Shown piece by piece: positions 2,658 to 60,989 of a DNA stretch of 64,000 bases (position 1 is its first letter; every line of letters starts with the position of its first letter). Source of the stretch: Bugula neritina. Its lineage: Eukaryota; Bryozoa; Gymnolaemata; Cheilostomatida; Bugulidae. The position numbers and the translations under genes are program-made. The notes below the pieces were generated by a model. It was given only the letters and a program-made list of their open reading frames with translations, was not told the DNA's origin and did not search any database. The DNA lies in contig OZ037770.1 of NCBI GenBank assembly GCA_964035545.1, positions 2,602,001 through 2,666,000 of the forward strand, read 5' to 3'.

Positions 2658-20340
<17,683 letters not shown>

Positions 20341-22992: not shown

Positions 22993-23199
22993 GTAATCAT
23001 GGACATTGCTCTCTTAAGCTGGAACATGATAGGATAGGTGTTCAGAAACCTGTGTTTCTCTCCCAAGCATGAGAAAGTTAGGGGTCTCGAGTGTACTGGA
23101 GTAAGGGGTACTACTATGATTTGCAGCATCACCAAGTCTCACTCTTCCTGACTCTCACCTATCAGCAGGCATCGACTCGGTATGAAAACGCAGCCAGTA

Positions 23200-24420: not shown

Positions 24421-24766
24421 TCAGAGAGTAGCCGCGCCACTACCAGGCATTCCCGTTTACTCCCACAGTCATCACAGGCATCCCCGTACAAATCTACCAA
24501 GTGTTCAGGCACCGGCCCCCTGCTGTTCCTAGTTGGTACTCTCTGGGCCTCGTTCGCTGTCTCCAGGGCGAGCCTGACATTCTCCTCCTGTAAAGAGTAG
24601 AACTCCCCCACTAGTGAACCAGCCGGCAAATCTACCGGCTCCGTGAAAGGGTTTACACACTGAACCAGGAACTTCCCCCGCTCCTCCAGCCTATTCAGGT
24701 TGTTAGCGAGCTGGACGCTCCTCAGTGCACCTTCTACCACTCCTAAGTCGAATATTTCCCTACAGT

Positions 24767-25316
24767 TCACTCTGCAGCAAACTGTAGCCCGAGAGCGCCC
24801 AGGTACAGTACAGCGCTGTACCACCTGCACTCCCCCACCAAGGGTCGGCCAAATCGGTCGACACAGGCCAGCTCACGCCCGGCCATCACCACCGCCGACT
24901 TGTTAAAGTCAATGTGGCACTTGTGTCGCTTCAGAAATGGCATTCCCAAGATGGCATCCTCCTTGAGTTGACTGACGATGAAGGTCTCGCTGATCACCTG
25001 ATCACGGACTCTACCAGTCAACTCTATCACACCGTAAAAAGGAATACATGACCCGTCCGCCAACATGCCATGCTCCCCCCATATGGCTCCAGGTTTGCCT
25101 GGTCCTTGGTACTGAATGTGTCAAATAGACGCCGGCTCAGAAGATTTGTGGTACACCCAGGCATAACCGCAGCTGTATCAGAGTAACCCTGGCACGCCAT
25201 CGACAGATGGCTGCCACATCACTGAATTCACTGATAAATTGCTCCACATCCTCTTTTCCTAAAAAGATGGGAGCCCGCAAGTGGTACCTGTCTATAAGCA
25301 GCGCTGGGCTGCCTAG
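24767..25316 (-). pseudogene. Element B gag stub fused to protease
   Basis: The gag start (RYHLRAPIFLGKEDVEQFI) runs to about 25160 and is then joined to the protease downstream of its active site ([29 protein letters not shown]). Compared with element A about 1.1 kb is missing between gag and protease, including the DTG motif. Confidence 0.7.
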
Positions 25317-34461: not shown

Positions 34462-34661
34462 NNNNNNNNNNNNNNNNNNNNNNNNNNNNNNNNNNNNNNN
34501 NNNNNNNNNNNNNNNNNNNNNNNNNNNNNNNNNNNNNNNNNNNNNNNNNNNNNNNNNNNNNNNNNNNNNNNNNNNNNNNNNNNNNNNNNNNNNNNNNNNN
34601 NNNNNNNNNNNNNNNNNNNNNNNNNNNNNNNNNNNNNNNNNNNNNNNNNNNNNNNNNNNNN
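34462..34661. other. Assembly gap (200 N)
   Basis: Exactly 200 N, probably a placeholder length. It lies about 320 bp beyond the gene 2 stop codon. Confidence 0.98.
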
Positions 34662-34982: not shown

Positions 34983-35132
34983 TTAGAAGGTATACTCTCT
35001 AATAAAGCCGTGGAAGCCAGGAAACAGGTAAAGTCTTTTATGGTAAGGAAGAGTATTTGAGATTATAACCAGATTTCTGCTTCTCTCTGAATCTTCATTT
35101 GGATACAGTCTTCTGACTAATTTAGTCTGTAC
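34983..35132 (-). CDS. Gene 2 last exon: caspase p10 end
   Basis: 150 bp, acceptor CTACAG. Encodes [16 protein letters not shown] and [17 protein letters not shown], matching the caspase C-terminus (S/PTLxKKLYF), then TAA at 34983-34985. Confidence 0.8.
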   Translation of the reverse strand, partial: VQTKLVRRLYPNEDSERSRNLVIISNTLPYHKRLYLFPGFHGFIREYTF

Positions 35133-38100
35133 CTGTAGAGTAAGTAATAACTATTATAATATTGTTTATTAATTCACTACTAGCTGTGATAACATGCAAA
35201 TCTCAGCTGGTAAACTAATTTATCCTATTATGTCTGCTACAGTGATGTGATACATTTACTTGTACTATATAAAATGCAGCAGAACAGTAAGATTAGTTAT
35301 TAGCAAACTACAAAAACATAATATTATATTAAGGAGGAGAGAAGGTCTCTATATAGTGAGCTAGTATACTAAAGAAATTAAAGCAACAAATGCTAAAATA
35401 TACCATTTTAACCGAGGAAAGCCAGAAGTTACACTTTGTCGCTCAAAATAGTCCAATGCCTCTTTCAATTACCACAAAAGGGTTTGAACATATAGCAATG
35501 AAATAAATGATATAATGTGAAATACTTTCTTTAATGAAAGTTCAAAGAGCCAAAAGGTTTGTTAGTCTTAAACTCACCTGCTGAAAGATGGTGTAGAGAT
35601 CACGGTGACAAGCATGTTTGTATATTGAAGATACTAAAGCTCTAATCATAGGAGATCCATAATCAAGATGTCTCTCTGATGCTATAATAAATGTATATAC
35701 AGCCAAAATTCAGGTCTAGCAAAGCCAAGCCTAAGACATTCTAGTTATAGTGAAACATAATTTTAATCTAAAAGTTCTGGAACATATTTTACTCATTTCA
35801 GTTTAGAAACTGGTTGAAAACACAAGCTTATACAAAATGTGGGGGCAATACAATAAAAAGCAAATAATTTTCTAGATTATACATATCAGGCGCTGCAGTA
35901 CAGAAAAATTAGCAATAATCACCATCTCTTACTGTACTTACAGCAGACGTTACTCTTCAGAACGAGAAGATCATCAACATTCAGTTCAGTTCTAAACTTT
36001 TCTATTCTAGGATCTGGGGGTAAGGCAGGTCTGATGGGTCTCATTACACTGGGTGTTTTGGGGTATTCAACATCATCATTAGCTTCAGATGGCAATGCAG
36101 AAGAGACAGCTTCAGTTTCTTTTTCTGGAGTTGCTGCATGACCTGATCTGCCTGAATTGCTGTCAATATTTGCTACAAGAACATCATTTAAACTTGGTTA
36201 GTGCAAGCAGAAATTAGCACTCAGACACTAAATGAATGCGGAAAGTGCTTTTCACAGAGTTTTGTAGATTACTTTCACTACTCAACAAAAATGACGGTTT
36301 CCATTAAAAAACAGTGATTACCTCCACTGCTGGCTTCTAAGATGACAACTTTAGGTTTTCTCCTCATTCCGTCGAAATACAAAGGAGTGAGTAAATCATA
36401 TAGTTTGGTGAGGTTGACCTTCTCAAGGTCAGTTCCATAGATGCAGTTATCTTTTCCACCATGAGTCATAACAACCAGTATATGACATCCTAGCTTTTTG
36501 TTTTTCTCTTCTTTTACCTCAGATTTCACAGTAGACAATATCTCCTAGAATATTTAAATAGTATTTTTAACCAAATCCTCAAACATTCTGAATACCAAAA
36601 ATTATAACTATAATTATTGTAACTCAAACTTTATAAAGCCACATGGTTTTCAAAAAAACTTTTTAGTAGTAAATGATACAATCATTTGGTAAGATAATAC
36701 ATTGGCAAAGTCAATCAGCTGTGCTGTGATATTAACTTGTAGTTAGAGGAGAACCTTTCTTTTAATCAGGTTTAACAAAAAAATGAACAGTGGTTTAAAA
36801 GCAAACATGCCAAGTTTTCTACCAAGTTTGAAAAATCCTCACAATATTGCAAAATTGTGTATAATTATTCTTTTATCTAACATAAAAATTATTATAAGTG
36901 AGATCAAAAAGGACTTAAAATAAGGTTTTGCGAAGAGGCTGTGAGTTTTGTTCTTATAAACAACTAGCAGGCTACTTTGAAAGTGAAAACTGTTTCTCTC
37001 AGTCTGAAAACACACATTTGCAGCAAGGTCTGTGTGCGTCATAACATCAAACTTGAGAGATTTCAACATGGCAGACATATTCTCAACATCAGCATCTGAA
37101 CCTTCCCTGCATAAGTCTGGTCTTTCAACAAAGTTCTTGTTGTTTATTATAAGAGCTCTTCCTCTCTCTCTGCTCATACTGAACACCTGAATACAAGTGT
37201 ATTTAGAATATAATTTTATAAGTGTACACACACACACACATGCGCGCGCACGCAAACGCGCACACACACGCGCACGCACGCACACACACACACACAATAA
37301 ATTAATTATCTGCAAATTTGGTTATCTATAACTAAAAGGAGCCTGTGGAAGCTAGAATAATCTAGTGAAGTTTGAGGGTTTAGTGTCCAAAAGGGAACTG
37401 CTAAAACTTATGTTCATTAGCTGACACATTCACCTTGTCAGTATTTGAGAAGAGTTGCTTTATCCGTGGGTTGGTTGTTGGCTTTAGTTCAAGTTGTATT
37501 AATTTCAGGCCTTCCTTGTTCTCTTTATCAGGGTACAGATTGTCATCATCTTCCGAGAGATCACTCAGATCATCATCTGATTTGTCTGCAGTCATATGAT
37601 TGGGGTGATTAATGCCAGCATTTGAAACCATAGACAACATATCTTGCTTATTCATCAGAAGAAGCAATAAATTTTTTTAAAAAGGCACAATTAAACATAT
37701 TTTGAAAATAAATGTATAGCCAAATAATTGCAAAGCCTATATAATTTTTCCAATACTGTGGGTTCAAAAAGTAAGTTCTGTCCTGAAAGTTTACCGTTTG
37801 ATTTGTTCTGTTCACTTCGGAGTTTGAGCTCAGAAAGGAATTTTTTAAATTTATTTGTTTCTGTTTCAGACAAAGTCTCACCTAAAAAATACAGACAGCA
37901 TTAGTTATACTATATCTTGATGAAAGTCATTAGACTAATATGTGATAAAAAAGAGCTATGTTTGTAAGTTGAAATTTTATAAATTAAAATGAAAATGCAA
38001 TAAAGTGCTGTGTAGCTTTCTAATTTCCATCTATTATTAAAATTCATTAATGCAGGACAAAGAATTAGATATGATTTGTTACTGTAAGACTATTTAAAAT

Positions 38101-41100
38101 ATATTATCAAGAAATTTAGAAGTGAATCATATGTGTAAACATACATGGGTGAAGTAGAGCACTGGGTATCTCTTCACCATTACACAGTATCTTCGAAGAT
38201 CCATGGCACTTGTCGACATCGGATGGCAGTCGGCTTTTCAAGGAACGAAAACACCATTTAGGATGCAGAAGCTTTTCAGGGCAAGAAACCCCTAGTATGA
38301 GACAGTGAGCACAAATGCAGGCGGTGACTGGTCGACTAGCAGTCCAAGTTTCCATCACATGTCTGAGGATGTTGTTGTTGGCTAAAATGAGCTTCTCCCA
38401 CATCCTGGAAATGTGAGCAGAATCAGATGACACATAGAGTAAGACTCTTCTAGAATCATAATCATGTGTCAGCTGTGTGTAAATTTCATCTTGATAGACA
38501 TTAACTCCATTTCCCTTCACCTCCATCGTAGCAAACTCGTCAGAAAATAGTTCTAACAAACCAACTGTCATTTGATGGTACACATGCCGTGGTAATGCAA
38601 GACCATTGAATTGTGTTTCGGTATGTAACAGCAGATCCTTGGGTGATGTGTATGAAACACTGTAATGATCCTTAGCAAACTGTGGAATGATGAAGTACGG
38701 CTCATGAACATTTCTTTCCAGAGGGCCGTACAACAAACGGAATGTTTTAAGCAAGCAAACGGCAATTTCAACATCATGAGAGCTTTTGAATAAAGTTTCC
38801 TCTGCAATCAAATATGTTAAAAGAGATATCATCATCAAGCCTGTTTTTTCGAAGTGATTCACAAATTCTCCAAACTCTTGTTTCTCCAGTCTCAACTCTT
38901 CACTAGAAAAACATGGTTTAAAATGATCAACTCGACTCTTCCAGATGTCTGGGTCATGATGATACAAAACACAGAGTAGTTTGGTAACTTCTGTGATCTT
39001 GTGAAATATGTATGGTTTAAGTGCTTCAATATTTTTATACCACAAAACTTTGCCGCAGTCATGCATGTATGTGAGAATGGTATCTAGCTGGTCTGGCTCA
39101 ACTTCAATGCCTGCTTTTCTCAGTTCAGGCAAAATAAACCAAAAAGAGCTAAAGGCTCCAGGCAAAGACGAAACTTTTTCATTCACTTTCTCCCAGATCA
39201 GTGGCAAAGGCTGAACAAAGTGCTGACTACTTTTAAGAAGTGAGCTCTTTATCGAATCAAACTCAGCATACTGGTCTTCCTTTCCAATTTGATAAGTATC
39301 TTTACTGGCAAACACCTTTCCACTTGATGAATTAAAATGCTGAATCTTTGCAAATTCTCGATCTAAACTTTTTTCTTCATCAAGAACTTCTTTGCACAGC
39401 TGTTCAAATATCTCAAGAAAACTATCTTGAAGCTGCTGAAATTTTTCGCTCTGAAACTTATCTTTGTGTGTGAAGACTAGTTTAGGTGGGCCAAGAGATG
39501 GATGGGTAAGATAGAGGTGGGACATGAAGTTAAAAGCCAACTTTCTGACAGCCTCTTTGTTTGTAAACTTATTTGAAATCTGATCAAACTGCTCCATGTT
39601 GACTACAATTACCGGTACGCAATTTTGTCTCAGTGTTAAATGGTATGTGATATGGTAGACCTCTTGGCCTCCCATATCTATGAGACGAAGAGTAGTACCA
39701 TTCACCTCTACCTCTTCCACATTAAACACTTTTGTGGTTTCATCCTGTTTTGCATTAGGACTTCTGTCAGTCAGAACTCTTTTCCTGTCACTGCTTTGTA
39801 ATGTTTGGATTAAACTGGTTTTTCCTGCCATTGTGTTCCCCAAAACAACTATTGTAGCAAATGGCAAGTTTTTACCAGCACCTTTAGCCAAGTCTTTGTA
39901 GTATTGCTGAACAGAATTTAATCCTCTTCTGCATATTTCTAGCGGTGGAGATGTAAGATCAAAACATCCACCTGTATCGAGAGACTGAAGTTGTGTTAGC
40001 TGTAGTATGTCAGGGTTCAAGAATGTCATGGAGCTGTTGTAGGATATATTCAGTGTGTGCAGATTACTCATTGTGCACACTGAAGGTGGGAGACTGGTGA
40101 AGTTATTAAATGATATGTTTAGTCTCTGTAACTTCTGTAGTCTCTGTATTCTAATAACATATAATATTTCTATTATCAGCATAAACCAGAGGTAAGTGAT
40201 CTACTATATGTCATGAGCAAACAATGATAATACACCAATACCTATACACAGAGCAGTGATAAGCAACAGTGACTTGTACAAAGCATGCTGACATAGTAGG
40301 CTACAGTAAATAAATGTCATTTTAAAAATGTGCCTAATAGTACAGAATATGGGCATTGTTGCAATCGTCATATTATTATATGTTTAAAATTTAAAATAAT
40401 ATTATTTATAAGAATTCATAGAAAATTATGAATCTATTCAGTTCCAATACTAAATACGTACTGTATATACTGCCATTTAAACATAACATAATACTATACA
40501 TCACACAAAAATATAGTTATATATGTACACCAGTTAGTATCTACATGTTCATACTGATCTTCTACTATAGATGTAATCAAAAAGACAAAAGTAATTTTAT
40601 ACTGCGGGACAGACAACATTATAAGCATGTGATATAAAACAGTTATTATCTCATAAAAGAAGCGTTGTGCTGATTTTGTAAAATGTGTTCAGGCGATTTC
40701 AGATGAAACTATAAATTTCTCTCCAACAATAATATATTTATTAAAACGATTTTATAGTGATATGAGAGTATATTATTATACTCTCATATCACTATAAAAT
40801 CGTTTTAATAAATATTCACTAAAATCTTGTAAACATAATTTTATAAATTATACAAGCTAACTTGCTATCGTGAGCTACAAGTTAATGAAATGCCATTATC
40901 ATGTTCCATATCTTGAAAGGCAGCCTATCTTGGTTCTAAATATAAATAAATGTTAAAAAGAATGTATTGTATTACCAGAAACAAAATACATTTTGACTGT
41001 TAATGCTGAGAGTGGAAACAGACAGCTGTTGTAGCGAGTGCCAAACACCCAAACAATATTCGAAATTGTAATTATACTTTTTTGTTCTTTCCTCCTAGCC

Positions 41101-47100: not shown

Positions 47101-50100
47101 CGGATATGGGGGGTGAACCAGAGTCGGACCACTCCATATCACCCGCAAGGGAACGGAGTCGTCGAGCGGAACAACAGGATGTTGGGTGACGCCCTCAGGA
47201 GCCTACTCCTCGGTTGAGGTCAGGAAGAATGGGAGGTGGCGCTGCCACAAATCATGCGGGCTTACCGCAGCACACCACGCTCCACTACACAGGAGACTCC
47301 AAACTTCTTGATGGTAGGACGGGGGACGCGGGTTCCGGAACACCTGACATACCACGTTCCCGCCCCCGAGTCGCCAGTACATGAGTACATGGGGAGACTG
47401 ATAGAGATCATGGGTAAAGCCCATGACGCACTGCAGGCCCAGCAATGGCAGATCCATACAGAAGACTTAGAAGAGCCTCCATTGTACCAGGTGGGAGACT
47501 GGGTCTGGATGGTGAGCTACTGTAGGCGACGCGGACAGTCGGCTAAACTTTAGCCCAAGTTCGTGAGTCCCTACTGCGTGGTGGAGGTGCTGCGCAACCA
47601 CACATACCGTGTGGAGCGCTCTGGACAGGTTTCAGTTTAGAGCGAGCAGCGCCTGAAACCATACTATGCCAGCCCAGACGCGGTGGGTCAGGCTCCACCC
47701 CTCTTGGAGCCCAACCGCCAGCCCAACCATCAGGGGAGGGCCACCCAACCCCGAGAGGTGGAAATTGTCATCCGAAGGGAGGCAGAGCAAGAGCAGGCTG
47801 CCCTGCTGGAACAGTTGGAACAGCAACAAAGGCAGGAGCAGCAGCAACAGCAGCAGCAGGCCCCAGGGCCACCACCCTTCTCGGAGGAAGACAGTCCTAC
47901 CCGTGTTACAAGTGAAGGCGGGGACCCCCTACTGTGGTAACGGGAGAGCAACTGGCACCACCAGCGCCTGCACAGCCAGAAAGGAGCCAGAGAGCTAGGA
48001 AACTACCCAGATATCTGGCGGATTGCCAAGTGGGACACATGGAAATGTCCCCACGGAGGAGTGGTACACCCAGTACGGGTAAAAACTTTGAGCCTCAGTT
48101 GCAAAACAGCCCTGGCAGTACAGGACTTCTCCAAAAGCAACAACCCGCAGACCAGCACAGTCACCTGGACAACAGGTGCCCAGCTCTTTCGGGTAATGTT
48201 GGCCGAGTTAGGTGGCGATACCCCATACCTATGACTGACTTGGACCCCCCTCCAGAAAAGGAAGATGAGGCCACGACCCTACTACCCGCCCAGCTGATTA
48301 GAGATGGCGCTACCGCAGCCACCACCCAGCCTCTACAGGTAGCGTTGGCAAGACTGGGCAAGGAGCCTGGAGCACCAGGCAGCCAGATAGAAGAGAAGAC
48401 CCAGCTGACCTACTCACACTTGCTCCGTCACCGGCAGAGTATGGCACCTCCTTACCGAGAGTGTGTCCTAGATAGTGCAATCCAGGCCTGGTCCAAGATC
48501 CTTGACCGATGTACAGAAGAGATAGAGAGCCTGGTGCACTATCTCCAATGACTGAACCGGACAACTAGGAGCCACCGGCATTAGCCCCCTGGATTGTATC
48601 TATTGTGGGTGCTAATACGATTGTTATATCATTGTGACACGCGTGATTAATCATAATACTTTTCTGTTAACCACATATTTTCCATTTTTGTGTTTTTTTT
48701 TTGTGACCTGTTTTGTACAAACACCTTGTTTCTGTTATCGAAAAGGGGATGCTTTTCGATGCGGGAGAATGTAATGGATTCTCATCCTCTATTAGTTCCG
48801 AAATAACTGCGTGTATTGTGATTACTGTTGCGTATCGTTTTGAATGCTGTAATTGCAGTAAGCTAGCTTGCTAATGCCCAATTATTGTGATTACTGTTAA
48901 AGCTTTCAACATAATGTAATTTTGCTAAAATACGCATTCCGGAGTTATTTTCTTTTGTGTTGCTATTTTATCGTTTTGCATTAATACTGATACTTGAAAT
49001 TTGTGGTCCGAGTTTCGGCTCTGCCGAATTTTGGACCACAAAAGATCTTTTGTCTACATGTTCTTTTGTTCTCTGTGTATAAGAGCAGGCGAGTTCCAGT
49101 GTAGATTCAGTCTACTACTGAAGCTCGCCTGGTTAAGTCATAGTTATTTCTGCTACAATAAAACATTTTCGAACTCTACTACCTCAACCTCTTTTGTTCT
49201 GCACTAAGTTACATTCAACCCACAAGTTTATCACAATATTTAAATAAACTTGGATCAATTGTTTGCTATTTAGCACATGAATAAGTTCCTTTGGTCCGCA
49301 TTAACTTATTAATTTTGCATATTCTATAGCTATTTCTTAGTGTCTGAAAAAAAAATTTTTTTTAATAAGTTTTCATTAAAAATAATGTCTTTTATTAATG
49401 TATTACCGTTTTTTGCCCCACAAAAATGGGGGGGGGGAAAGTGGGCTATTATTCCAGGTACTTTATATTAGCCATTATAGTTGTTAGCATATTAGCTATT
49501 TAGCAATCAATACACCGGTTATATACATTATTATGGTACCAAAAGAAAAAATAGCGTCTAACTGGGAAACATCTATCTGAGATGAAACCTTTCATAGGAA
49601 TCTATATAAGCCAATTGCCAAAATAACAGCATTCCAGTTATATCCTATAATTATCTGGTATTTTGCTTCAAAATGACAGGAACTCACTGAATTTGCTTGC
49701 AATATTGCACACAATACCATCTTTTTAGTAATCAGTTCTACCCAAAACCTATCAACAATTTGTCTCTGGGGGAACTGGCATGGTGAACACGTTACATGAA
49801 GTTATGGACCTATGATATAATGATCTTTGAAATTGGCTGAAATTTCTCGACAAAGTACTTCTTGACAATACTTCTATAAGCAGTAAGGATTCTACAGGTT
49901 CACAAAAAAGGAGGTATAAATATCATATTGCAGTTTTGGTTGTGTTGAATATTTTACTGTAACATACAAGTTAACAAATGTTTTAAATGGTAAGTTTATT
50001 GTAAAACACAAACCTCTTAGGTAGAGTAGATAATTTGCAGTTTTGCATATTCAACTCTTTAAGTGATGTGAGTGATGACACAACTTCTGGTACTTCGTTG

Positions 50101-53100
50101 AGAGGATTCCTTCCTATGTCTAGTTTCTCCAACTGAGTCAGCTGACGTAAACTGTAATATAAAATATGTTAAATATGTATATAGTCTACCTCATCATAGT
50201 ATTGTATAATGTATATAATGTGTTTAACCAGGTATACAACTACAAAAATATAGCAATAAAATTACCGTAGCATATGGTACGAGCAAAGAAAAAGCACGAG
50301 GGTAATACTGTGATAATATATAATAAAAGACGCAGAACGTGTTCTATGATTTACTACACAGCTATATTATATACAGAGTATAATTACATGGGTTAAGATA
50401 ACTACCATGTAGTTATGAAAGATTATAGAGCAACTATATTATAAATATTTTACTTCTTTATAAATTTTTTATTCAACTTATCATAAAAATTGGCTACTTA
50501 TTCTAAGTAAAGATATAAGAGGGTATAATTTTTCACCTATCCCAGCTTTGTTCTGTTCGGGTAGCTGGGATGATAGTGTATTCTAATGGATTAGAACTAT
50601 TAATTACTCAGTAAATACTAGTAAACTACAAATGGCGGCTTATGATAGGTAGAAACTATTTTAACATAATTATATAACATACTGTACTCTGCTTGTGTAG
50701 TCAATAATATATAAACACATGCGTGCAATAAATTTATTACCACAAGACAGATTCAATGCAAATGAAAAAGACTAATGAGCAGTTTTTAGTTACTGCATGC
50801 ATACTGGTAAAATACAAATGGCTGCTCTATTATTGATTACAATTTCTTTTCTTGATACAGTACGTATTACATAATGGCATACCCTAAACGCAATGTAATT
50901 TCTAGGATAGATTGAAGTATGATATGTATACTTTCAGAAAATCAATTTATGTTTTTAACATAGTAGTATATATTGGCATAAATTATTACTACAATTGATG
51001 AATATATAAATATATAACCGAGTTGATTTTTCAAACAACACAAAATGTGTGACGCACAAACCTCTCTGGCAGATTAGATAAGTCACAGTCCCACATTTTC
51101 AACTCTTTAAGTGATGTGAGTGATGACACAACTTCTGGTACTGTGTTGAGAGGATTGCCTCCTATGCTTAGTTTCTCCAACTGAGTCAGCTGACATAAAC
51201 TGTAATATATAAAGTATGTGATACAAGATATGGTCAGCTACTGCTATATTCAAAGAATGGACACTTAGCAAGCAACGATTCAATAAGCTTTAGATACTAG
51301 CTAAAGATACAAACAGTTCTATCCCAGATAGATGCTATTTGTTATTGTGGTACCATGATAACATATATAACTGGTGTATTGATTGTTAAATAGCTGATAT
51401 GCTTATAATAGCTATATAATAGCTATTATGAAGTATCTGGAATAATAGCCTACGTTTCATGGATTTGCGTGGGGAAAAAACAGTAATATATTAACAATAG
51501 ACATTATTTTTAATGAATACTCATTAACTAAATATTTCCTCAAACAAAAATAAGTATAGAATATGCAAAATTGATAAGTTAATGCAGATCAAAGGAGTTT
51601 GATTATAAATATAGCAGATAATCCATCCAAGTTTATTTAAATATACATTTATTTCAATAATATTCAAATAAATTGCACATAAAATATATATTGTACCAAA
51701 ATAAATAAATAGCATCTAAGTGGGAAGCGTCTAAGTGGGATGACACCCTACAAACTGCTTCTTTAGTAATTACAAAGTCTTTGTTTGCATAAAAATAAAT
51801 AATGCCGTACCTTAGAATTATATTGTTTTCAAGATATAGCAAGCTGTTGAATAATTTCAAAAAAATTATGTTTATATTTCAACTGCTATATAGTATAATA
51901 ACAAAGACATACTTTAACACTGCTTGGTAAGATCTGTGAATTAATGAATGTTTGAAACAATACAAAACCTGTGACGCACAAACCTCTCAGGAAGATTAGA
52001 TAATTTACATTTCCACATATTCAACTCTTTAAGTGATGTGAGTGATGACACAACTTCTGGTACTGTGTTGATAGGATTGTCTCCTATGTATAGGTTCTCT
52101 AACTGAGTCAGCTGACATAAACTGTATTATAATGAAGTGTGTGATATATGCAATTTATTGTATCATAACAATACATTCTGCAAAATTTGCGATGTACAAT
52201 ATTCAAGAACTAAATTCAATGCACAGGTAAAATTCTCCAGAATGTAATAACGTGGTAATATTTTTATTAATTTGCAGCGTCTGAGACAGTTAATTACCCT
52301 GAATATCACGTGCATGATGTCATTAGAGCAGTTACAATTAAGAAATTATATTATATATAGATATAATATATTTAGGAGGTTGTAGATATTGAGAGTGGAG
52401 AGAGCTTTACTTTAATTACACGCGGTTAACCTGTTAGTTTAGTATAGATGAGACCTCACTTCATATTGTTATGATTTTCAGAATTAGGGTTGATATGCAA
52501 TCCGGAGAGTCTATTTATTTGCTAGAGAACTTCACCAGGATAAGTCGAATAAATACGAGTATATTTTACACACAAGAATACATCACAAAAACTATACAAA
52601 TACATTCAGCAAATCTACACATCTATATCATTCAGCACTCTATCTTCGACTAACTAACAGCGGGAAGACTAACTACTGCTACTAACTATCAGTGTCGCTA
52701 ATTGGCTGTCCATTGTTCCGGGTCAATTACGTGACCCTATGCTATAGTAGTGGGGAAAATAACATTTCCCCGTATTACGCTGCTGGTAGCTCCACAAGCC
52801 ACCACACCGCCCCCACCAGCAGAAAGCTCTCTTTCTGATACAAAAAAAAATATTTTACAATTAACCACATACATCAGTAGACCAAAAGAAAAAGACATAA
52901 CATATATATATATATATATAGATACACAATAACAGACATAATCATTATAACGGCATGTCACATACAATTGGCTAGCTATAGAAAGAGGATACCGGCTAGC
53001 TGTAGTGTTGGACAAGAGGTCGAGCTGTCAAGCATTTACATGATAGTCTTGGGCCTCCAAGAGGGTGAGGCTTGCGGATCATTCCGGGCAGAAGAGCCAG

Positions 53101-56100
53101 AGTCAGTGTTTGGCAAGCCGATGTTTGGCTTGGCGGGCACGTAGCTTTCTTTTAATCCGGCCGACAGAGCCTTTTAACTGATAAAGACCCGTTGTGGTAC
53201 TAAGTAGATCTGGGGCTAACTGGGTGAACTCAGCCTGCACGTGAAGGAGACGCTCCTCTACAATGGCCAGGCGAGTAGGGTCTGGGGACGGCGTCCGCCT
53301 TCGACGAGGGGGGGAACCTGGAGATTGGGTCCGCCTGCTAGTTGAAGGGCGGGGAGACTTACTCTTCTTCTTCAGGGTAGGCAAACTCTTCGGGGGTATA
53401 CACAATCTGAGGGCGGTCGGACACCAATGGGGATTGTTGCCTGGCGTAATCTAACACATGTTGAAAGCCGGAGGTCAGGACGGCCAATAACATTGCCTTC
53501 TTCACTAAGGGTCGTATTAGAGTCAGGAATTCCGGGTAGAGCTTAGCATCTACTACGTAATTCTCTTCGGGGAAACGGCCCGCCGCTCGGTGTCTAGTGA
53601 CGGAATAGGGGTAGACATCATTATATCCGCAGGGGCAGACTGTGAGTAAGAAGTGGGCGTTGACATGTAGCCTCATGGAGCGGTGAGAGGCACACTCTTC
53701 GTCACAAATCTGGCACTGTTTCCTTCCTTTGGGTCCCCAGGCTGTCTCTATTTGCTTCTCCGTCTCCGGCGACACCCACCACCAGCGGCGGCGCAGTGGC
53801 TCAGGCCGGTTGCCATTGGTGTACTCCTCGTGATGCGGAGCGGGAGGTGCTCTATCCCGTACCCTGGTTGTAACGGTCGAGTGTAACCTGAAAGAGTTTC
53901 AACAGCGTTAGTATAATACACTGCAGTGTTGTCGGCTTGGACAGCCTGGCAACTTCTCAGTCAGTTAACACTCGTAGAGATTTATGGTAGTGAGTAGTTG
54001 GATAGAACACGTATTGCAATGAGATTGTAAAATCTCTAAGTCAAACTGAATTCCTACCACAGTAGTTCACTAACCTATCTCCAGCTCAATTGACTCAGGT
54101 GAGTCGGAGCTGAGTGATGCAATCTAGTTTCCATATCAAGATATAGTTAACTCACCCCACGATCCGTTGTCGTACGACATACTGAACTTGTGAAATGGTT
54201 TGAACTATTGACTAGGAACACGTCTGCTCTTGACTGCATCAGCATAAGAAAAGATCGAGCAACGTGGTTGGGGTGGGTGACTAAGACTTTGCGCACCCAG
54301 CGGATGAATTTTGTTTCTAAATCCGCCGATACAAAAGTTGATATTTCCGTGGTGTTGACAACTCCCACAATTGCTCGATACTTTTCCCGTACGGTTCCCC
54401 GCTAGACTTTCATACGCGCCGCTTTTAATGCAGTCACATACGAAGTCCTTTAAATATGATGGGGGTTGCCTCGTACGTTGTCCCCGCTCTAGGGGAGGTG
54501 ACGCACTCGCCGGTGTACTAGTAGGGGCCTCTGGCGGCGTCTCTACTTCACTATTAGTGGTCACTTCTTCCTGTTCTCTGGATGGAGCCCCTCCCTCCGT
54601 GGGGGTTTGCACTTCCAGAACCGGCTCGGTCTCCGGAAGTGATGGAACCAGACTTGGCGCAGGCGGTGGCGGACGCGCTTCTGCAGGCAAAAGTGGTCGC
54701 TCATCCCTCACCAAATCTTCTGCCCGCGGAATGACCACTTTGTACTCAGGTCCATGCCGCCGTCGCCCGCGCATTGTTGTCTGCCTCCTGGGCTCCAACA
54801 ACGGGGGGCTTCTCTCACTGCGTCAGGGCTAGCCCAATACGGCTTCAAGCGAGCCTCATTCTGGGTAGACACCTGTCCTGAGCGCTCAATCTTGTAGGTA
54901 TGGGTGGGCATAGCCTCGAGTATTACGTAGGGTCCCACGAACTTAGGCTGTAACTTAGCCGCCTGTCCGCGACGCCTACGGTAATTGACCATCCACACCC
55001 GATCTCCTGTCTGGTAGAGGGGTGGTTCCTCGAAATCCTCATGCCCAACCTGCCACTGCTTTTCTTGCGGTATTTTGTGTGTGACCCTCATCCGTTCCAC
55101 TAGTTCACTGGCATACTCGTGGACCGAGCAGTCTTGCTCTGGAACATGGTAGGTAAGATGGTCAGAGACACGAGTCTCTCTCCCGAGCATTGGGGTCTCA
55201 CCAGTACTGGTGTGTGGGGTGCTACGGTATGCGCGCATGATTTGCGGCAACACCGTGTCCCATTCCTACTGACTGCGTCCGAGGAGTAGACTCCGGAGCG
55301 CATCACCTAGCATCCTGTTATTGTGCTCCACCACCCCGTTACCTTGGGGATGGTAAGGGGTGGTCCTGCTCTGATTTACTCCCCAGAGGCGGCAAAGGTC
55401 GCTCATCAGTTGAGACTGAAACTGAGCGCCGTGATCAGAGTGTATCTGTTCGGGGAGCCCGAAGTAACAGAATACATGTTGGTCTAGCGCCCTGGCCACT
55501 GTCAGGGCTGACGCATCTGGGATAGCCAGAGCGTCTGCCCACCTCGTAAAGTGGTCGGTCAATACTAAGATCCAACTATTGCTTCTGGGGGTTAGGGGCA
55601 TGGGTCCGACCAGGTCGACAGCTACTACTTGCCACGGCCTTCCAGCATATAACCTCCGCTGTCTCGCTTCACTAGGGGGACGGCCATGCTTGCTGGCCTG
55701 GCAGATTTCACACTGTTTTACCCTGAGCCGGACATCTCGCCCCATTTTGGGCAAATACCACCGGAGTTGTAATTTAGAGATCACTCTCATGACTCCTGCG
55801 TCAGCCTGTTTGTGAGTGTCCCAGATTAACTCAAAGCGTATGGCACTAGGGCAAACCACCCTCTTCTTCTCTGGGTGTCTGCCGTTGGCAGCTAGAGAAA
55901 TGGTCAGCAGACCATCCTGCCCGATCCTCAGCGAGTCCCAACGCTGGCAGAATAGCCGAAAAGCGGCACATCCCTGCCGTATTTGCTCCTCGCTGGGTCG
56001 TCGCCGTTCCTTTTTGGCCCGATATATGTCTGCCACTCCCCCAGGCAGCTCTTCCTGGAGCTTCTTCAGCTCCCAGACATTATCGGCCGATACAGGATTT

Positions 56101-59100
56101 GCGCGGAGGTTTTGTACAACCTCCGGGGACTCGTCAACCTTCTGCTTGAGTTGACCCTAGTCCCAGTCAAACTGCGCTCCCTGGTGAGCCAGTGTCTCCA
56201 ATTCACATCGCGGGGGACCTCCGTCCCTCCTCTCGATATTGAGACACTGTTTGCAACCTCCATCAGGTCGGCGGCTCAAACCGTCCGCATTGCTGTGTCT
56301 CTTGCCCGGTCGATGTTCTATCCGGTACGAGAACTCAGCTAGGATTTCGAGCCACCGGGCGACCTGACTGGAAGGCTCTGCTCTCTTGCACAACCAGATC
56401 AGAGAGGCATGATCCGTACGCAGCCGGAACTTTCTGCCGTATAGGTATGGTCTGAAGTGCTTCACTGACTTGATTACTGCCAACAGCTCCTTGTGGGTAG
56501 TGCAGTAATTTCGTTCAGTGGGTGAAAGAGACTTGCTGTAGTAGGCTACTACTACCTCCCAGCCTTCTTGCACTTGAGACAGCACAGCACCAACGTTCTG
56601 GTCAATGGTGTCAGTGTCGAGGTTGTACTCCAGAGTAGGATCTGGGTAGGCCAAGATGGGTGCCGTCAGTAGGCAACCTTTGAGGCGGTCGAACGCTCCT
56701 TATTCGACCGGGGTCCACTGCCACGTCACTCCCTTTGCGGTGAGCCGGTTCAACGGCTGTGCTATGCTCGCAAAGTCTGGTATGTATTGTCTGTAATACC
56801 CTATCAGCCCCAAGAAAGCCCGAAGTCCGGTCAATTCTTGGAGGGTGACCCAGTCTTCTATCGCCCGTACCTTTTCAGGATCCGTTGCCACGCCGTTTCG
56901 ACCGACAACGTGCTCCAGGTACTTGACCTCCGGCTGCAATAGAGCGCACTTGGAAGGTTTGAGCTTCAGACCAACACCTCGGAGTCTCTCGAAAACCTCC
57001 CGCAGAGGACTGAAATGTGTCTCGAAGTCTGGGGAGATCGCGATGACATCATCAAGGTAGATCAGCAGTGTCTTCTAATGGAGCCCGCTGAGGACTTGCT
57101 CCATCAGCCTCTGGAAGGTGGCTGGGGCGGAAGTTAACCCGAAAGGCAGCACCTTCCACTTCCACAAACCATCCCGTGTGATAAACGCCGCCTTCTCCTG
57201 GGCGTCGGGACTCAGAGGAACTTGCCAGTAACCGCTCAACAAGTCTAACGTACTGAAGTACTTGCTGCCGGCTAGGGCGTCCAATGACTCGTCAATACGA
57301 GGTAGAGGGTAGGCGTCCTGTATGGTTACGCTATTGAGCTTGCGGCAATCCACACAGAACCGCCAACTGCCGTCTTTCTTCCGGACAAGTACGACCGGCG
57401 AGCTTCACACACTGTGGGCGGGCTCGATGAGGCCGCGGTCCAGAAGATCCCGGACTTGTCAGCTAACCTCCTTTTCCTTCTCCGGCCCCAGCCTGCATGT
57501 GGGTTGCCGAATAGGGACCGTCCCTGCAGTCAGCGGTATTTCGTGTTTGACAGCTCCAGTCAGTCCCACGTCTTGATCTCCGCTGCTGAACACATCACCG
57601 TAGTCGCGTAGCAACTTCGCCATGGCTTGGCGTTCCTCGTTGCTTGCGCAGCCACCACAGGCTGTCTCATATAACTCCTGGATGTGTGTTGGGACCGCTC
57701 CTCGCCCCTGAGTAGGGCGTTGAGGGGGTGCCTTCGTCGCATCTCCCAGCGACGGGCCCGCGTCTTCTTCCTGGACAGAGTGGAACCGGCCCAGCATAGA
57801 CCCAGCTGGGAGCTTGATGGGCTCAGTGAAGGGATTGACACATTGCACTAAGATCTCTCCTCGTTCAATCAGTTGGTTTAAACTGCTGGCGAGTTGGATC
57901 CTTTCGTGCGCACCTTCGACTACCCCGAGTCCAGAGATCCGGCTATTGTTCACCCTGCAGTGAATGGTAGCACGGGAGCGGCCTGGCACGATACAGTTTC
58001 GTACCAACTGCACGCCTCCCACCAAGGGGTGGCCGAACTTGTCGACGCATGCGAGTGCTCGCCCGGACATTGCCATCGCAGATTTACTAAAATCGATGTG
58101 ACATCCGTGCCGTTTCAGGAATGGCATTCCAAGGATGGCGTCCTCCTTGAGCTGACTGACGATAAACGTCTCTTGGATCGTTTGATCACGGACGCGTCAT
58201 GTCAGCTCAATTATACCGTAGAAGGGAAGGCACGACCCGTCAGTCAGGGTGCCATACTCCCCCTCGTACGGTTCCATCTTGCCCCTGACCCTAGCGCTGA
58301 GGGTGTCAAAGAGTTGGCGACTTATGAGGTTCGTGGTACAGCTCGAATCAATTAGGAAAGTGACAGCTTTGCCTTCTAATTTGCCGGGCAAGAAATAGCT
58401 GTTTCCATGGGGCTGCACCTGAACTGTCTCTTCGTGCCTTGCTCTCGCAGGGAGTACCTCCCTCGCTCTAGGTCGCGAAGGAGGTCGCTTGGGATGGTGG
58501 TAGATTGGCCTTGGAGGTGAGCAGGCTAAGTTTTCAGCTACCTTTGCTGGCTCCCATCCAGATTCTTGTGGAGGGGCATAGAGAAGTCAGCGGCGTGGTC
58601 GGAGCCTCTTGCTGGTCCGTCGTGGCTGTCGCCACTCTCGGTTGTCAGCACGTGGTACCCGTCTGGGTGACCTACGTTTCTTCTTCCCTGAGGGGTTCAT
58701 CGCCGGCCCGCAGGAGGTGGGAACATCTGCGGGCCGCGGTAGTTTAACCCCGAAGTTAGGAAGGGACAGCACCTGCGGAAATGTCTTTGGTTTCCGCATT
58801 CCCAGCAAAAACTGACCGTTTCCCCCGGTGGCGGCGCCGGTGGTCGTACTGGCTCAGAGTCGGTACCTACTGGGGTTTGGGGTGTCAGTGTTGCTATCAG
58901 TTTGGCCAGCATGTCGGTCAGTTGAGTGACCTTCGATGCGGCCGTTAACTGAGCCACGGCAGCCGTCGTGGAGGGCTCCGCCTCTCGCTCCGCTGCCGTG
59001 TTCGCGCGGAGTACCTCCACCTGACGGGAGTTCCTGCAACTTTTATGCATCTGGTTTGCCAGGAGATAAGCTTCTCCCTCCGCCAGAGCATCTTCAACGG

Positions 59101-60989
59101 TGGTGACTCCCCTACCTAGAAACTGGTGGTGGAGACCCAAGTCGTTGACAGATTGTATAAAGGCGTCAAGAGTATACCTCTCAGGGTTAGCTTGGAGCAG
59201 ATCGCTATACGCAATCTGTGCCAGTTTCATGACCGTGGCGGCATGTTCTTGCAGCGGGGTGTGAGGATCACGCCGCAGCCTTTGTAGTCGGGCCCTGGCA
59301 TCTGTAGCAGAGATGCCGAAGCGGGCCCGCAGAAAAGCAAAGATACTATCGATGTCTGCACCTAGCCCATAGGGCTTAGCCTTGTCTATCAATGACATTC
59401 TGAGCTTCAGCAGGGCCACCCGAGGGGGCCACTGGGCGACGTCCATTACGTCACTAAACTCTTAGATGAATTGCTCCACCTCTTCTTCGCCCGTGAAGGT
59501 GGGCGCTTTTAACCGGTAGCGATCCTTGTTCAGCTCTCGAGGAACCCTTCGCTCTTCTACCACATGATTCACAGGCATAGCATCGTTTTTACGCTCACCT
59601 TCTGCTGCCGGTGATGCATTCCAGCGTTTACAGTCTCCATCGTGGATGTACACTATCCCACTGCTGCCACCACTGTTATGATTTTCAGAATTTGGGTTGA
59701 TATGCAATCCAGAGGGTCTATTTATTTGCTACAGAACTTCACCAGGATAAGTCGAGTGAATACGAGTATATTTTACACACAAGAATACATCACAAAAACT
59801 ATACAAATACATTCAGCAATTTTACACATTTATATCATTCAGCACTCTATCTTCGACTAACTAACAGCGGGAAGACTAACTACTGCTACTAACTATCAGT
59901 GTCGCTAATTGGCTGTCCATTGTTCCGGGTCAATTACGTGACCCTATGCTATAGTAGTGGGGAAAATAACATTTCCCTGTATTACGCTGCTGGTAGCTCC
60001 ACGAGCCACCACAATATTGCTATGTAGGTTGATGTCATAATTTTGTAATTAGGTGCATTTAAACATATGAAATATAATAGCGTTCTGTAAAATTTTGAAG
60101 ACTTTATGGTACTTTTGTATTCAGCTACATAAAACATGCTTTAAGTGATGATATCAAGTAACAGCATACACATTGTGACACTGTTTTCAATTCCTACATC
60201 TGATTCAGCTGGTATATAGATACAATGCTTTACGTATTATACTATTAGTTATACACTGTATGATTATATTATGTGTAAAAATATGTTTTCGCATTCAATT
60301 AGTCAAATATTTTGTAAACAAGAAATAATGTCATCTACCCTCTATACAGTTGCTGTATTATAAACACTCACTTGTTCAGACTTGCTCTGTCAGTCAGGCT
60401 AGAAACATGTAGATACAGGGCTTTACCGGCAATCTCTCCAATGTTGTCGGGAATTTCCCCTTCCAGTTTGAGATGTGTAATGTCATAACTCCCAACTTCA
60501 CGTTTCACCTCAGCAGTAGTATATGACTTGGTACCAGCAAAAATTGTATCTAACCAGCCTACAGCAGGCTGTCCAGAATGTCTAAACCAAACACTCATAT
60601 TCTCTGTAACATTATACAGTGTGATTATTACACAGTGCTAGCAGGTGATGTCTCTCATTCTGATCTACTGATTGAATATATTTATTATCTGCATGCTGTG
60701 TATCAGTCAGTCAACTATCACAGCAATAAAGAACTGAATTACACATTTTATTATAGCAGCTGTAGGTTTAACAAAGTAAAAACTTCGAGTTATAAAATAA
60801 AATGAATAAAATCAGCAATTTCCTAAAGTCATATATACCTGATTTAATATCTCTAGAATTATGCTGATTGTGTTTCAGTATAAAAACATCTCAAATCTCC
60901 TTTTTATGTATTACATACAATGATGTTAAAATAATGTAATATATTTTGAGCGTTTGCAATATTTCAAAACACTCACCACCAGTTGCCAT
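34983..60989 (-). CDS. Gene 2: LRR-ROC-COR-caspase-like protein (1279 aa model)
   Basis: Exons on the minus strand: 60989-60977, 60603-60372, 52121-51984, 51199-51062, 50151-50014, 40150-38145, 37881-37795, 37642-37434, 37186-37016, 36544-36322, 36172-35942, 35681-35578, 35132-34983. All borders are GT-AG, all phases agree, and the total is 3840 nt including TAA. Domains: N-terminal region 1-81, six LRRs 82-219 plus more to about 290, ROC with P-loop near 324-331, DMGG near 378 and THKD near 447, COR to about 780, linkers to 987, caspase-like p20/p10 988-1279. ROC would bind GTP and COR dimerise, so the caspase-like part may be brought together by the nucleotide state; this is inference. The predicted catalytic Cys is Ser. 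Two gypsy elements and two small transposons lie in its introns. A separate start at the ATG in exon 37186-37016 (MSRERG) cannot be excluded. Confidence 0.8.
35578..35681 (-). CDS. Gene 2 exon: caspase p10 helix region
   Basis: 104 bp, acceptor TTATAG, donor GTGAGT. Encodes [20 protein letters not shown], aligned to the SWRDxxxGSWFIQALCxxL segment of caspases. The Trp of the substrate pocket is absent. Confidence 0.8.
35942..36172 (-). CDS. Gene 2 exon: inter-subunit linker
   Basis: 231 bp, acceptor TTGTAG, donor GTAAGT. Acidic and Pro-rich ([30 protein letters not shown]), ending [11 protein letters not shown]. It sits where caspases have the p20/p10 linker. DDVEYP contains Asp residues that could be cleavage sites, but this is not shown. 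Confidence 0.7.
36322..36544 (-). CDS. Gene 2 exon: caspase p20 catalytic region
   Basis: 223 bp, acceptor TTCTAG, donor GTAATC. Encodes [19 protein letters not shown], with the conserved catalytic His near residue 1072, and [13 protein letters not shown] in place of KPKLFIIQACRGG. The catalytic Cys and the following Arg are both Ser. Confidence 0.85.
37016..37186 (-). CDS. Gene 2 exon: caspase p20 start
   Basis: 171 bp, acceptor TTCAG, donor GTGTGT. Encodes [19 protein letters not shown], then [20 protein letters not shown] and [10 protein letters not shown]. This is the first beta strand and helix of the p20 fold. The Arg of RxGxDxD, which contacts the P1 Asp in caspases, is kept. The DKV.SM motif typical of caspases spans the junction with the preceding acidic exon (NTDK|VFSM). 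Confidence 0.85.
37225..37298. repeat. CA/CG alternating purine-pyrimidine tract
   Basis: ACACACAC with GCGCGC and ACGCACGC stretches in a short gene 2 intron; a potential Z-DNA former. Confidence 0.85.
37434..37642 (-). CDS. Gene 2 exon: acidic linker
   Basis: 209 bp. Encodes [20 protein letters not shown] and [15 protein letters not shown]. Acceptor GCAAG, donor GTGAATG. Paralogous to 2658-2839. Confidence 0.75.
37795..37881 (-). CDS. Gene 2 exon: 29-residue linker after COR
   Basis: 87 bp, encodes [20 protein letters not shown]. Same size and phases as 5109-5195. Confidence 0.75.
38145..40150 (-). CDS. Gene 2 exon: terminal LRRs, ROC GTPase and COR
   Basis: 2006 bp, acceptor TTATTAG, donor GTATGT. 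LRRs [15 protein letters not shown] and [13 protein letters not shown]-loop [10 protein letters not shown] (about 39840-39811); [18 protein letters not shown] with [16 protein letters not shown] and the PYFIIPQF strand; a Cys/His-rich end ([10 protein letters not shown]). The ROC part and the last 130 residues are nearly the same as in gene 1, while the COR middle differs strongly. Confidence 0.9.
40734..40815. repeat. Perfect 39-bp inverted repeat with 4-nt loop
   Basis: Left arm 40734-40772, loop TTAT, right arm 40777-40815. The arms are exact reverse complements. The matching gene 1 intron (about 8029-8075) has only one arm. Confidence 0.9.
42231..42707 (+). repeat. 5' LTR of element C (477 bp)
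   Basis: TGTAATGGATT ... TTTATCACA. It contains TGTATAAAAGCAGGCGAG (42547-42564), a likely TATA box, and AATAAAACA at about 42628, a likely polyadenylation signal. Confidence 0.9.
42709..42726 (+). promoter_or_regulatory. Primer-binding site, element C
   Basis: TGGTGGCAGCGGTGGGAT, fully complementary to a typical tRNA-Leu 3' end; one base after the LTR. Confidence 0.85.
42754..43660 (+). pseudogene. Element C Gag
   Basis: Starts [19 protein letters not shown] 1-bp frameshift near 42890, a TAA at 42990-42992, a TGA near 43276 and a TAA near 43350 break it. Landmarks: [46 protein letters not shown], and a CCHC zinc knuckle [14 protein letters not shown] near 43577-43618. It would package the element RNA. 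pol overlaps its end by 76 nt in the -1 frame, suggesting frameshift expression in the ancestor. Confidence 0.85.
43585..47940 (+). pseudogene. Element C Pol: protease, RT, RNase H, integrase
   Basis: One reading frame without any frameshift but with ten internal stops (about 45040, 45178, 45670, 46057, 46492, 46777, 46828, 47215, 47551, 47638). Protease LLDTGCTTN near 44150; RT with [17 protein letters not shown] and the catalytic [15 protein letters not shown] near 45430; RNase H with [18 protein letters not shown]; integrase zinc-binding THKQAHSG and CEVC, catalytic [10 protein letters not shown] (about 46866), [12 protein letters not shown] (about 47050) and GNGVVERNN (about 47150); GPY-type module near 47500-47650; and a Gln-rich tail ([13 protein letters not shown]). 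The order PR-RT-RH-IN defines Ty3/gypsy. Not functional as read. Confidence 0.9.
47934..48551 (+). CDS. Element C 3' ORF, unknown function
   Basis: 205 codons, uninterrupted, overlapping the end of pol. Pro/Gln-rich start ([20 protein letters not shown]), then a region ending [17 protein letters not shown]. No transmembrane segment or env-like signal, and no zinc-finger motif like those in the other two families. It may be a continuation of the integrase tail in another frame. Confidence 0.45.
   Translation: MVTGEQLAPPAPAQPERSQRARKLPRYLADCQVGHMEMSPRRSGTPSTGKNFEPQLQNSPGSTGLLQKQQPADQHSHLDNRCPALSGNVGRVRWRYPIPMTDLDPPPEKEDEATTLLPAQLIRDGATAATTQPLQVALARLGKEPGAPGSQIEEKTQLTYSHLLRHRQSMAPPYRECVLDSAIQAWSKILDRCTEEIESLVHYLQ
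48770..49235 (+). repeat. 3' LTR of element C (466 bp)
   Basis: Same ends as the 5' LTR; preceded by the purine tract GCGGGAGAA. Confidence 0.9.
50014..50151 (-). CDS. Gene 2 LRR-pair exon (last before ROC)
   Basis: 138 bp, donor GTTTGT. Encodes [20 protein letters not shown] and [20 protein letters not shown]. Confidence 0.85.
51062..51199 (-). CDS. Gene 2 LRR-pair exon
   Basis: 138 bp. Encodes [20 protein letters not shown] and [20 protein letters not shown]. Confidence 0.85.
51315..51748 (-). mobile_element. Small TIR transposon, copy 3 (434 bp, 7-bp TSD)
   Basis: Reverse orientation. Ends AGTTCTATCCCAGATAGATG and, reversed, GGGTGTCATCCCACTTAGAC. Flanked by TACAAAC at 51308-51314 and 51749-51755. 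Confidence 0.85.
51984..52121 (-). CDS. Gene 2 LRR-pair exon (first)
   Basis: 138 bp, acceptor ATACAG, donor GTTTGT. Encodes [20 protein letters not shown] and [20 protein letters not shown]. Confidence 0.85.
52467..52806 (-). repeat. 3' LTR of element D
   Basis: 340 bp, TGTTATGATTTTC to AAGCCACCACA on the plus strand. Confidence 0.9.
53103..53405 (-). CDS. Element D second 3' ORF, basic
   Basis: 100 codons: an Arg/Ser/Pro-rich start ([17 protein letters not shown]) and a possible coiled-coil region ([18 protein letters not shown]), ending with a basic tail ([16 protein letters not shown]). It overlaps the end of the zinc-finger ORF in another frame and may be its continuation after a frameshift. 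Function unknown; nucleic-acid binding is plausible from the charge. Confidence 0.45.
   Translation of the reverse strand: MCIPPKSLPTLKKKSKSPRPSTSRRTQSPGSPPRRRRTPSPDPTRLAIVEERLLHVQAEFTQLAPDLLSTTTGLYQLKGSVGRIKRKLRARQAKHRLAKH
53359..53775 (-). CDS. Element D 3' ORF with tandem zinc-finger motifs
   Basis: 138 codons. The first finger has [21 protein letters not shown] (C-x2-C ... H-x3-H), immediately followed by FLLTVCPCG and [12 protein letters not shown], a second finger-like unit. The rest is acidic at the end (EFAYPEEEE). It lies after integrase, where retroviruses have env. The ORF at 21212-21835 has the same double motif. I know no standard gypsy domain of this kind. A DNA- or RNA-binding role is inferred. 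Confidence 0.55.
   Translation of the reverse strand: MSPETEKQIETAWGPKGRKQCQICDEECASHRSMRLHVNAHFLLTVCPCGYNDVYPYSVTRHRAAGRFPEENYVVDAKLYPEFLTLIRPLVKKAMLLAVLTSGFQHVLDYARQQSPLVSDRPQIVYTPEEFAYPEEEE
54205..56150 (-). pseudogene. Element D integrase and C-terminal tail
   Basis: Integrase zinc-binding part with DTHKQADAG (the second His of HHCC is Asp here) and [10 protein letters not shown]; catalytic [10 protein letters not shown] near 55615, [12 protein letters not shown] near 55430 and GNGVVEHNN near 55340. The GPY module [19 protein letters not shown] lies near 54940, then a Pro-rich tail in a shifted frame (54801-54205). A stop at about 55266 separates the core from the end. Confidence 0.8.
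56157..57461 (-). pseudogene. Element D reverse transcriptase and RNase H
   Basis: [37 protein letters not shown], then [14 protein letters not shown] near 57060, and the thumb with [17 protein letters not shown]. RNase H has [38 protein letters not shown] and the [12 protein letters not shown] connection. Stops at about 57458, 57403, 57075, 56700 and 56157, all in one frame. Confidence 0.85.
57459..58418 (-). pseudogene. Element D protease and linker
   Basis: The active-site segment reads [20 protein letters not shown]: the DTG/DSG triad of aspartic proteases has become DSS, so it should be inactive. Downstream [13 protein letters not shown] and [17 protein letters not shown] match the other copies. 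A TGA lies at about 58197. Confidence 0.8.
58587..59650 (-). pseudogene. Element D Gag
   Basis: The capsid region begins [19 protein letters not shown]; a TAA at about 59462 interrupts it, and the frame then continues for 249 codons with [17 protein letters not shown] and the CCHC knuckle [14 protein letters not shown] near 58815-58770. A probable start is the Met of MPVNHVVEE near 59580. Confidence 0.8.
59655..59672 (-). promoter_or_regulatory. Primer-binding site, element D
   Basis: Minus strand TGGTGGCAGCAGTGGGAT, tRNA-Leu type with one difference, one base from the LTR. Confidence 0.8.
59674..60013 (-). repeat. 5' LTR of element D
   Basis: 340 bp, same ends as its partner. Confidence 0.9.
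60372..60603 (-). CDS. Gene 2 exon 2: N-terminal region
   Basis: 232 bp, acceptor TTACAG, donor GTGAGT. Encodes [20 protein letters not shown] and [18 protein letters not shown]. Paralogous to 19651-19882, same length and phases. No domain recognised. Confidence 0.8.
60977..60989 (-). CDS. Gene 2 exon 1: start codon
   Basis: ATGGCAACTGGTG plus GTGAGT donor; same as gene 1. Chosen because the phase fits and the sequence is conserved between paralogues. Confidence 0.7.

Follow-up and report, generated by a model that had tools for sequence, protein, structure and literature searches.

Roco proteins are sorted into leucine-rich repeat (LRR)-only, kinase and DAPK1 groups, and dimerisation of their Roc-COR modules is linked to the nucleotide (PMC6337361; here and below, statements on a cited paper refer to the parts of it consulted). 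The order LRR-Roc-COR is common to known Roco proteins (LRRK1/2, MFHAS1/MASL1, DAPK1 and bacterial Roco) and to the subject of this study, a predicted protein of the bryozoan Bugula neritina encoded within a stretch of 64,000 nt on chromosome 6 (C6:2602001-2666000), which as a whole we call the window. In this comparison only the bryozoan protein has a C-terminal caspase domain, which is absent from the three groups as given in the consulted part of PMC6337361.

Bacterial conflict proteins of the LRR-AP-GTPase-COR type have the same LRR-GTPase-COR-effector order, with a caspase among their effectors (PMC8195603). Compared by description, the bacterial systems use at least 24 kinds of effector (PMC8195603), whereas B. 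neritina has an animal-type caspase in ~108 paralogues. Brown algal ROCOs, which have shuffled LRR exons and are candidate immune receptors, share with the bryozoan gene variable LRRs and LRR exons of one length and phase, but have 72 bp per exon and, in the consulted part of that paper, no other domain, where B. neritina has 138 bp for two LRRs and adds a caspase (PMC11378527). A figure legend in a sponge NLR paper names COR and caspase, and a Roco-caspase protein is not described in the parts examined (PMC12909245). An earlier note on this DNA, made by a model from the sequence, knew of no Roco-caspase fusion described in animals, which agrees with the groups in PMC6337361 and with the literature searched (preprints and most subscription papers lying outside its scope), where we found none.

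NLRs have variable LRRs and form large clustered families. The bryozoan protein resembles NLRs and plant NB-LRRs in its sensor of variable LRRs, its NTPase switch, its death-type effector and its large clustered family, and differs from them in that Roc-COR replaces NACHT/NB-ARC and the effector lies in the same chain. The window protein has the LRR sensor, and neither NACHT nor NB-ARC was matched in it by Pfam at E up to 1; among its relatives, NACHT was matched in 1 of 19 (E = 0.027). The likeness to an NLR-type layout drawn in the earlier note gains from the LRR variability and the family size reported below. Two corrections to that note are the effector of the window copy, predicted to be dead, and the bacterial precedent for the layout (PMC8195603).

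The Roco-caspase gene of the window

The gene consists of 13 minus-strand exons (60989-34983) that, as the earlier note had claimed, join in phase, giving 3840 nt and 1279 amino acids. It begins with an ATG at 60989, its single stop codon is at the end (34983), and 12 of 12 introns are GT...AG. For eleven of the 13 exons the frame used is the sole open one; exon 1 (13 nt) and exon 7 have further open frames. The encoded order is LRR-Roc-COR-acidic linker-caspase, and the DKV.SM motif crosses the linker/caspase exon junction as described in that note. The exons are as follows.

60977..60989, minus strand: exon 1, 13 nt, start codon; has a GT donor and continues in phase into exon 2
60372..60603, minus strand: exon 2, N-terminal part of the protein, unmatched by Pfam ahead of the LRRs
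51984..52121, minus strand: exon 3, a pair of 23-residue LRRs; 138 nt, phase 2-2
51062..51199, minus strand: exon 4, LRR pair
50014..50151, minus strand: exon 5, LRR pair
38145..40150, minus strand: exon 6, final LRRs, Roc GTPase, COR region and Cys-rich end
37795..37881, minus strand: exon 7, linker
37434..37642, minus strand: exon 8, acidic linker, terminating at the DK of DKV.SM
37016..37186, minus strand: exon 9, start of the caspase large subunit, Peptidase_C14; 87 matches in the B. neritina genome
36322..36544, minus strand: exon 10, part of the large subunit that holds the His (MTHGG) and, where the catalytic Cys would be, Ser (LEASSG)
35942..36172, minus strand: exon 11, intersubunit linker and start of the small subunit
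35578..35681, minus strand: exon 12, small subunit; present in 16 of 20 fetched paralogous loci
34983..35132, minus strand: exon 13, end of the small subunit and stop codon

Scanning the 12-exon form of the protein (without the 13-nt exon 1) against Pfam, we found the LRRs, Roc (E = 8.4e-8, above the cut-off) and Peptidase_C14 (E = 1.5e-27), the two latter being profiles that the earlier note had proposed to search; PDB caspase chains also match, and no DED is among the Pfam matches. The third proposed profile, COR, was matched as COR-A only (E = 0.06), below the curated cut-off. A predicted Roc-COR model matches the LRRK2 Roc-COR fold (Foldseek, best 1000 chains), and a COR after the Roc is read from this modest-confidence model together with sub-threshold profile matches. 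Profile comparison also links the protein to LRRK1, to LRRK2 and to bacterial chains named 'Rab family protein', which we take to be Chlorobium Roco. In an alignment of the window copy, 13 of the 20 fetched loci and proteins P0001-P0005, PF08477 was matched in 19 of 19 rows, and the core residues of what we take to be the P-loop, DxGG and THxD motifs are invariant throughout.

Other features were seen within the gene's bounds or next to them. A CxHC...WC...C pattern, possibly metal-binding, follows the COR region (38145-38330, minus strand) and is conserved in the Bugula rows; CxHC also occurs in 9 of 13 proteins of the bryozoan Watersipora subatra. By eye, intron 2 contains a Gypsy-like long terminal repeat (LTR) element (52430-60030, minus strand) with interrupted frames and end repeats 96.8% identical over 340 bp; a second LTR element (42150-49250, plus strand), with end repeats 91.8% identical over 485 bp, lies in intron 5, and together the insertions account for ~15 kb of a gene that spans 26 kb. 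A run of N (34462-34661), adjoining a CT microsatellite, lies directly beyond the 3' end.

One gene or two, and the extent of the family

A 103-residue Roc core was used to search the B. neritina genome (215.85 Mb in 295 contigs; the genome note for tzBugNeri2.1 gives 216.00 Mb and 320 scaffolds, PMC11480708). We obtained at least 109 matches, corresponding to at least 108 loci once a split copy (C6:3525426 and 3526248) was merged, and these lie on eight chromosomes (C1, 39; C6, 37; C7, 10; C5, 7; C4, 6; C3, 4; C8, 4; C2, 1). The second large-subunit caspase exon had at least 130 matches. A same-strand caspase exon lies downstream of Roc within 5 kb at 98 of the 108 loci, within 7 kb at 100, within 10 kb at 103 and within 20 kb at 106, and the remaining two have other downstream caspase matches (C1:2757026; C6:15226684). 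No opposite-strand caspase exon was found within 20 kb of any of the 108. Upstream on the same strand there is no pair within 7 kb, a single one within 10 kb and 13 within 20 kb, a distance at which neighbouring genes begin. Within 7 kb, none of 200 random placements yielded more than 4 pairs (mean 0.64), and 200 circular shifts never exceeded 3 (mean 0.36).

The junctions themselves are conserved. We fetched 20 loci, which by our count are 20 of the 22 plus-strand Roc matches with long frames, and in all of them the linker and both large-subunit exons follow Roc in order. All 20 have a donor GT behind the Roc-COR exon, and 19 of the 20 have one behind the linker at the projected place; the acceptor AG precedes both large-subunit caspase exons in 20 of 20.

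A second cheilostome has the same architecture, as the earlier note had suggested looking for in related genomes. Both B. neritina and W. subatra belong to Flustrina (Cheilostomatida). A linker-plus-caspase query returned three proteins, and a query with one of these returned 13 among the 8000 scored candidates that share most words, within the length limits of the search; all were from W. subatra. Eleven of the 13 have a precomputed caspase domain, and in ten scanned chains we found Peptidase_C14 in all ten, LRRs in eight and a Roc below the cut-off in seven. By BLAST, the 1279-residue protein aligns unbroken to seven of the 13 (P0008, P0009, P0010, P0011, P0013, P0015 and P0018), from the LRRs over Roc-COR and the linker as far as the end of the caspase; residues 68-1270 pair with P0009 131-1363, for instance. 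In an eighth, P0007, the alignment begins within Roc; the rest are shorter or broken up, and two have no caspase. Several members bear NCBI names as MFHAS1 homologues. A query with the Roc-COR region returned six proteins, five exon-sized and one a distant LRR-Roc-COR protein whose listed domains do not include a caspase. In the tree, a branch with 100/100 support separates the Bugula from the Watersipora rows, which suggests that the family expanded independently in the two lineages; branch lengths are large and some of the joins are uncertain.

An alternative to a fused gene is a pair of adjacent genes, one Roco and one caspase, co-duplicated as a cassette. It could draw on the genomic nature of the evidence and on the 24 of 130 caspase exons for which no Roc core was listed within 20 kb. 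However, phase is kept over all junctions, splice sites and linker are conserved, and the single-chain W. subatra predictions align in one stretch; the two-gene reading, tested against random and shifted positions, was rejected, and we regard it as barely credible. The earlier claim that the caspase part belongs to the Roco transcript is supported by the downstream pairing, the splice sites of 20 paralogues and the single-chain predictions, and the genomic evidence very strongly supports LRR-Roc-COR-linker-caspase as one fused gene.

The window also holds parts of a second family member, whose likely caspase exon, reading QACSG, lies beyond the window, 15.4 kb downstream (C6:2591816).

5458-7458, minus strand (more widely, 5428-7497): Roc-COR exon of the second member, 74% identical
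12835-19047, minus strand: LRR exons, presumably of the second member

Elsewhere in the window, outside the gene, further Gypsy-like open frames (45-1820 and 21212-25120, minus strand) and a 365-aa open frame resembling part of a non-LTR or Penelope-like element (11052-12149, minus strand) were recognised by eye. At another locus (L138, C1:33882000-33891900), the Roc-COR exon lies within a 2363-aa open frame, far longer than those of other copies. Six small contigs of the assembly (C58, C90, C99, C210, C144 and C36) encode Roc/Rab-type GTPases whose reading frames run through TAA and TAG but not through other stops, in the manner of some ciliates; they are perhaps from a cobiont in the assembly.

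Variable repeats, acidic linker and catalytic site

We compared 14 chromosome-6-type and 10 chromosome-1-type full-length LRR exons, leaving out one broken window exon, partial matches in L020 and L028 and four other-type exons of L011. Concave positions were set by the LRR consensus, after protein variation there had been noticed. Using simple counting over non-independent pairs, we found that the six concave-face codons had a ratio of nonsynonymous to synonymous differences (pN/pS) of 1.43 in the chromosome-6 type (pN 0.49, pS 0.34; whole-exon pS 0.16) and 2.66 in the chromosome-1 type (pN 0.40, pS 0.15; whole-exon pS 0.10), compared with 0.48 and 0.62 for the other LRR codons and 0.33 and 0.28 for the Roc-COR exon. 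When six codons were drawn at random 100000 times, 0 and 1 of the sets had a pN as high as that observed. The LRRs appear to form a recognition surface on which selection is diversifying.

The acidic linker was matched in 20 of 20 fetched loci, weakly (33-37% identity) in L023-L025. LSDLS lies inside the acidic run in 17 of these loci, with a looser form in L023-L025, and four aligned W. subatra rows partly keep the sequence as SDxSD.E..Y.DE. The linker could be a candidate site of self-cleavage or phosphorylation.

At the catalytic site, the best PDB alignment sets EASSG of the window copy against QACRG of an effector caspase, with His in place and Ser standing for Cys. A misplaced splice is ruled out as the cause of the missing Cys, as the residue is inside exon 10 and paralogues have Cys there. 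Among 130 distinct caspase exons (131 rows, L046 and L138 sharing one exon), 112 have His and Cys, ten have Ser for Cys (the window copy and nine others), one has Tyr, one Ala and one Leu for His, and five were not fully read. All 12 Cys-less copies are Roc-paired. Eight of the ten copies encode the Ser by AGC and the other two by TCC, where live relatives have TGC, and because of these two codons the Cys was probably lost at least twice. The window copy is a pseudocaspase, predicted to be proteolytically dead, and most family members are not; the earlier description of its caspase as a cell-death effector needs correcting for this copy.

The eight AGC copies have a dN/dS of 0.26 (28 pairs over one 222-nt exon, with gene conversion possible), compared with 0.47 in live copies (3 pairs), which argues for a retained, non-proteolytic role. 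The same value bears on whether the window copy is a decaying pseudogene, as its lost Cys and the two LTR elements in its introns might suggest. With 1279 codons open, splice sites intact and the same Ser codon shared by seven further copies at this dN/dS, decay is very unlikely. A retained pseudocaspase would have a known counterpart: cFLIP is a pseudocaspase with tandem DED that acts on caspase-8. Pseudocaspases of the cFLIP type and the window protein both have a constrained caspase domain without the catalytic Cys; they differ in that the window protein has LRR-Roc-COR instead of a DED match.

Constraint without catalysis could also mean that the caspase domain acts across the family mainly as a scaffold for other signalling, with proteolysis secondary. 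The presumed P1-Asp pocket, placed by eye against caspase-3 positions, seems to have Arg in LCREGSD and in SERH, and the small-subunit Arg is replaced by Ile in L010-L012 and by Ser in L028; these replacements fit a scaffold, as do the Cys missing from 12 of 130 exons and the constraint in the clade tested. The His-Cys pair is kept in 112 of the 130, however, and QAC(S/G)G is present in all ten W. subatra chains (of 13) in which a pattern located the site. A mainly scaffolding role is therefore improbable, though less so than decay.

Proposed mechanism and role

We consider it likely that the window copy belongs to a bryozoan family of at least ~108 single-chain, receptor-like genes for recognition, in which Roc-COR pairing joins caspases and dead members regulate. 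In the mechanism that we infer, the LRRs would bind a non-self or damage ligand, and ligand and nucleotide state together would alter Roc-COR dimerisation. Initiator caspases are activated by proximity. By an activation of this type, Roc-COR dimerisation would unite two C-terminal caspase domains and lead to cleavage, and the acidic linker, when cut or phosphorylated, may release or tune the caspases. The outcome would be cell death or inflammation-like signalling. The window copy, with Ser for Cys, may work as an inactive partner that switches live paralogues on or holds them back, much as cFLIP acts on caspase-8. Exon-by-exon searches of the B. neritina genome with prokaryote controls, which may under-count, found three matches to gasdermin-like exons, one to NACHT, three to DED and four to CARD. 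Gasdermin-like proteins would be candidate caspase substrates, and with so few NACHT, DED and CARD matches the common set of NLR and adaptor genes seems small next to 108 Roc-caspase loci.

Several points weigh against this interpretation. The case is built from genomic DNA and predicted proteins. The Roc-COR model has modest confidence (mean pLDDT 63.7, pTM 0.47), COR is below the curated cut-off in the window copy, and 0 of 10 scanned W. subatra chains reach the Roc cut-off. The search for exon 12 came up empty at 4 of 20 loci (L009, L019, L022 and L027), and in-frame stops occur in 3 of 66 Roc-COR exons, in the L018 linker, in the small subunits of L023 and L022 and in the L110 caspase exon. 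Many of the 24 caspase exons without a nearby Roc core are clustered on C2 and C9. The simple counting behind pN/pS and the possible under-count of the toolkit genes belong here too, as does the fact that the data do not tell allorecognition apart from immunity.

Bryozoans are colonial, and the same fused family could serve colony allorecognition (fusion or rejection) in place of microbial defence, since a large, clustered family with variable LRRs suits the recognition of self and non-self no less than that of pathogens. To our knowledge, known allorecognition systems have few loci, whereas this family has 108 on eight chromosomes; we judge the allorecognition role unlikely, though the least so of the alternatives considered. 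A broader proposal, to which we give an even chance, is that cheilostomes moved the job of NLRs and inflammasomes to ~100 germline-diversified, one-chain LRR-Roc-COR-caspase receptors, with dead members, arisen at least twice, tuning mixed dimers.

If this is true, the family would be a further independent coupling of a variable sensor, through an NTPase switch, to a death protease, beside NACHT NLRs and plant NB-LRRs, and we know of no earlier animal example of such coupling on an LRRK2-type GTPase. Because sensor, switch and protease lie in one chain, the path from Roc-COR nucleotide state to output could be read simply as proteolysis. The family would also give Bryozoa, a little-studied phylum, a testable receptor repertoire, with its dead members as built-in controls.
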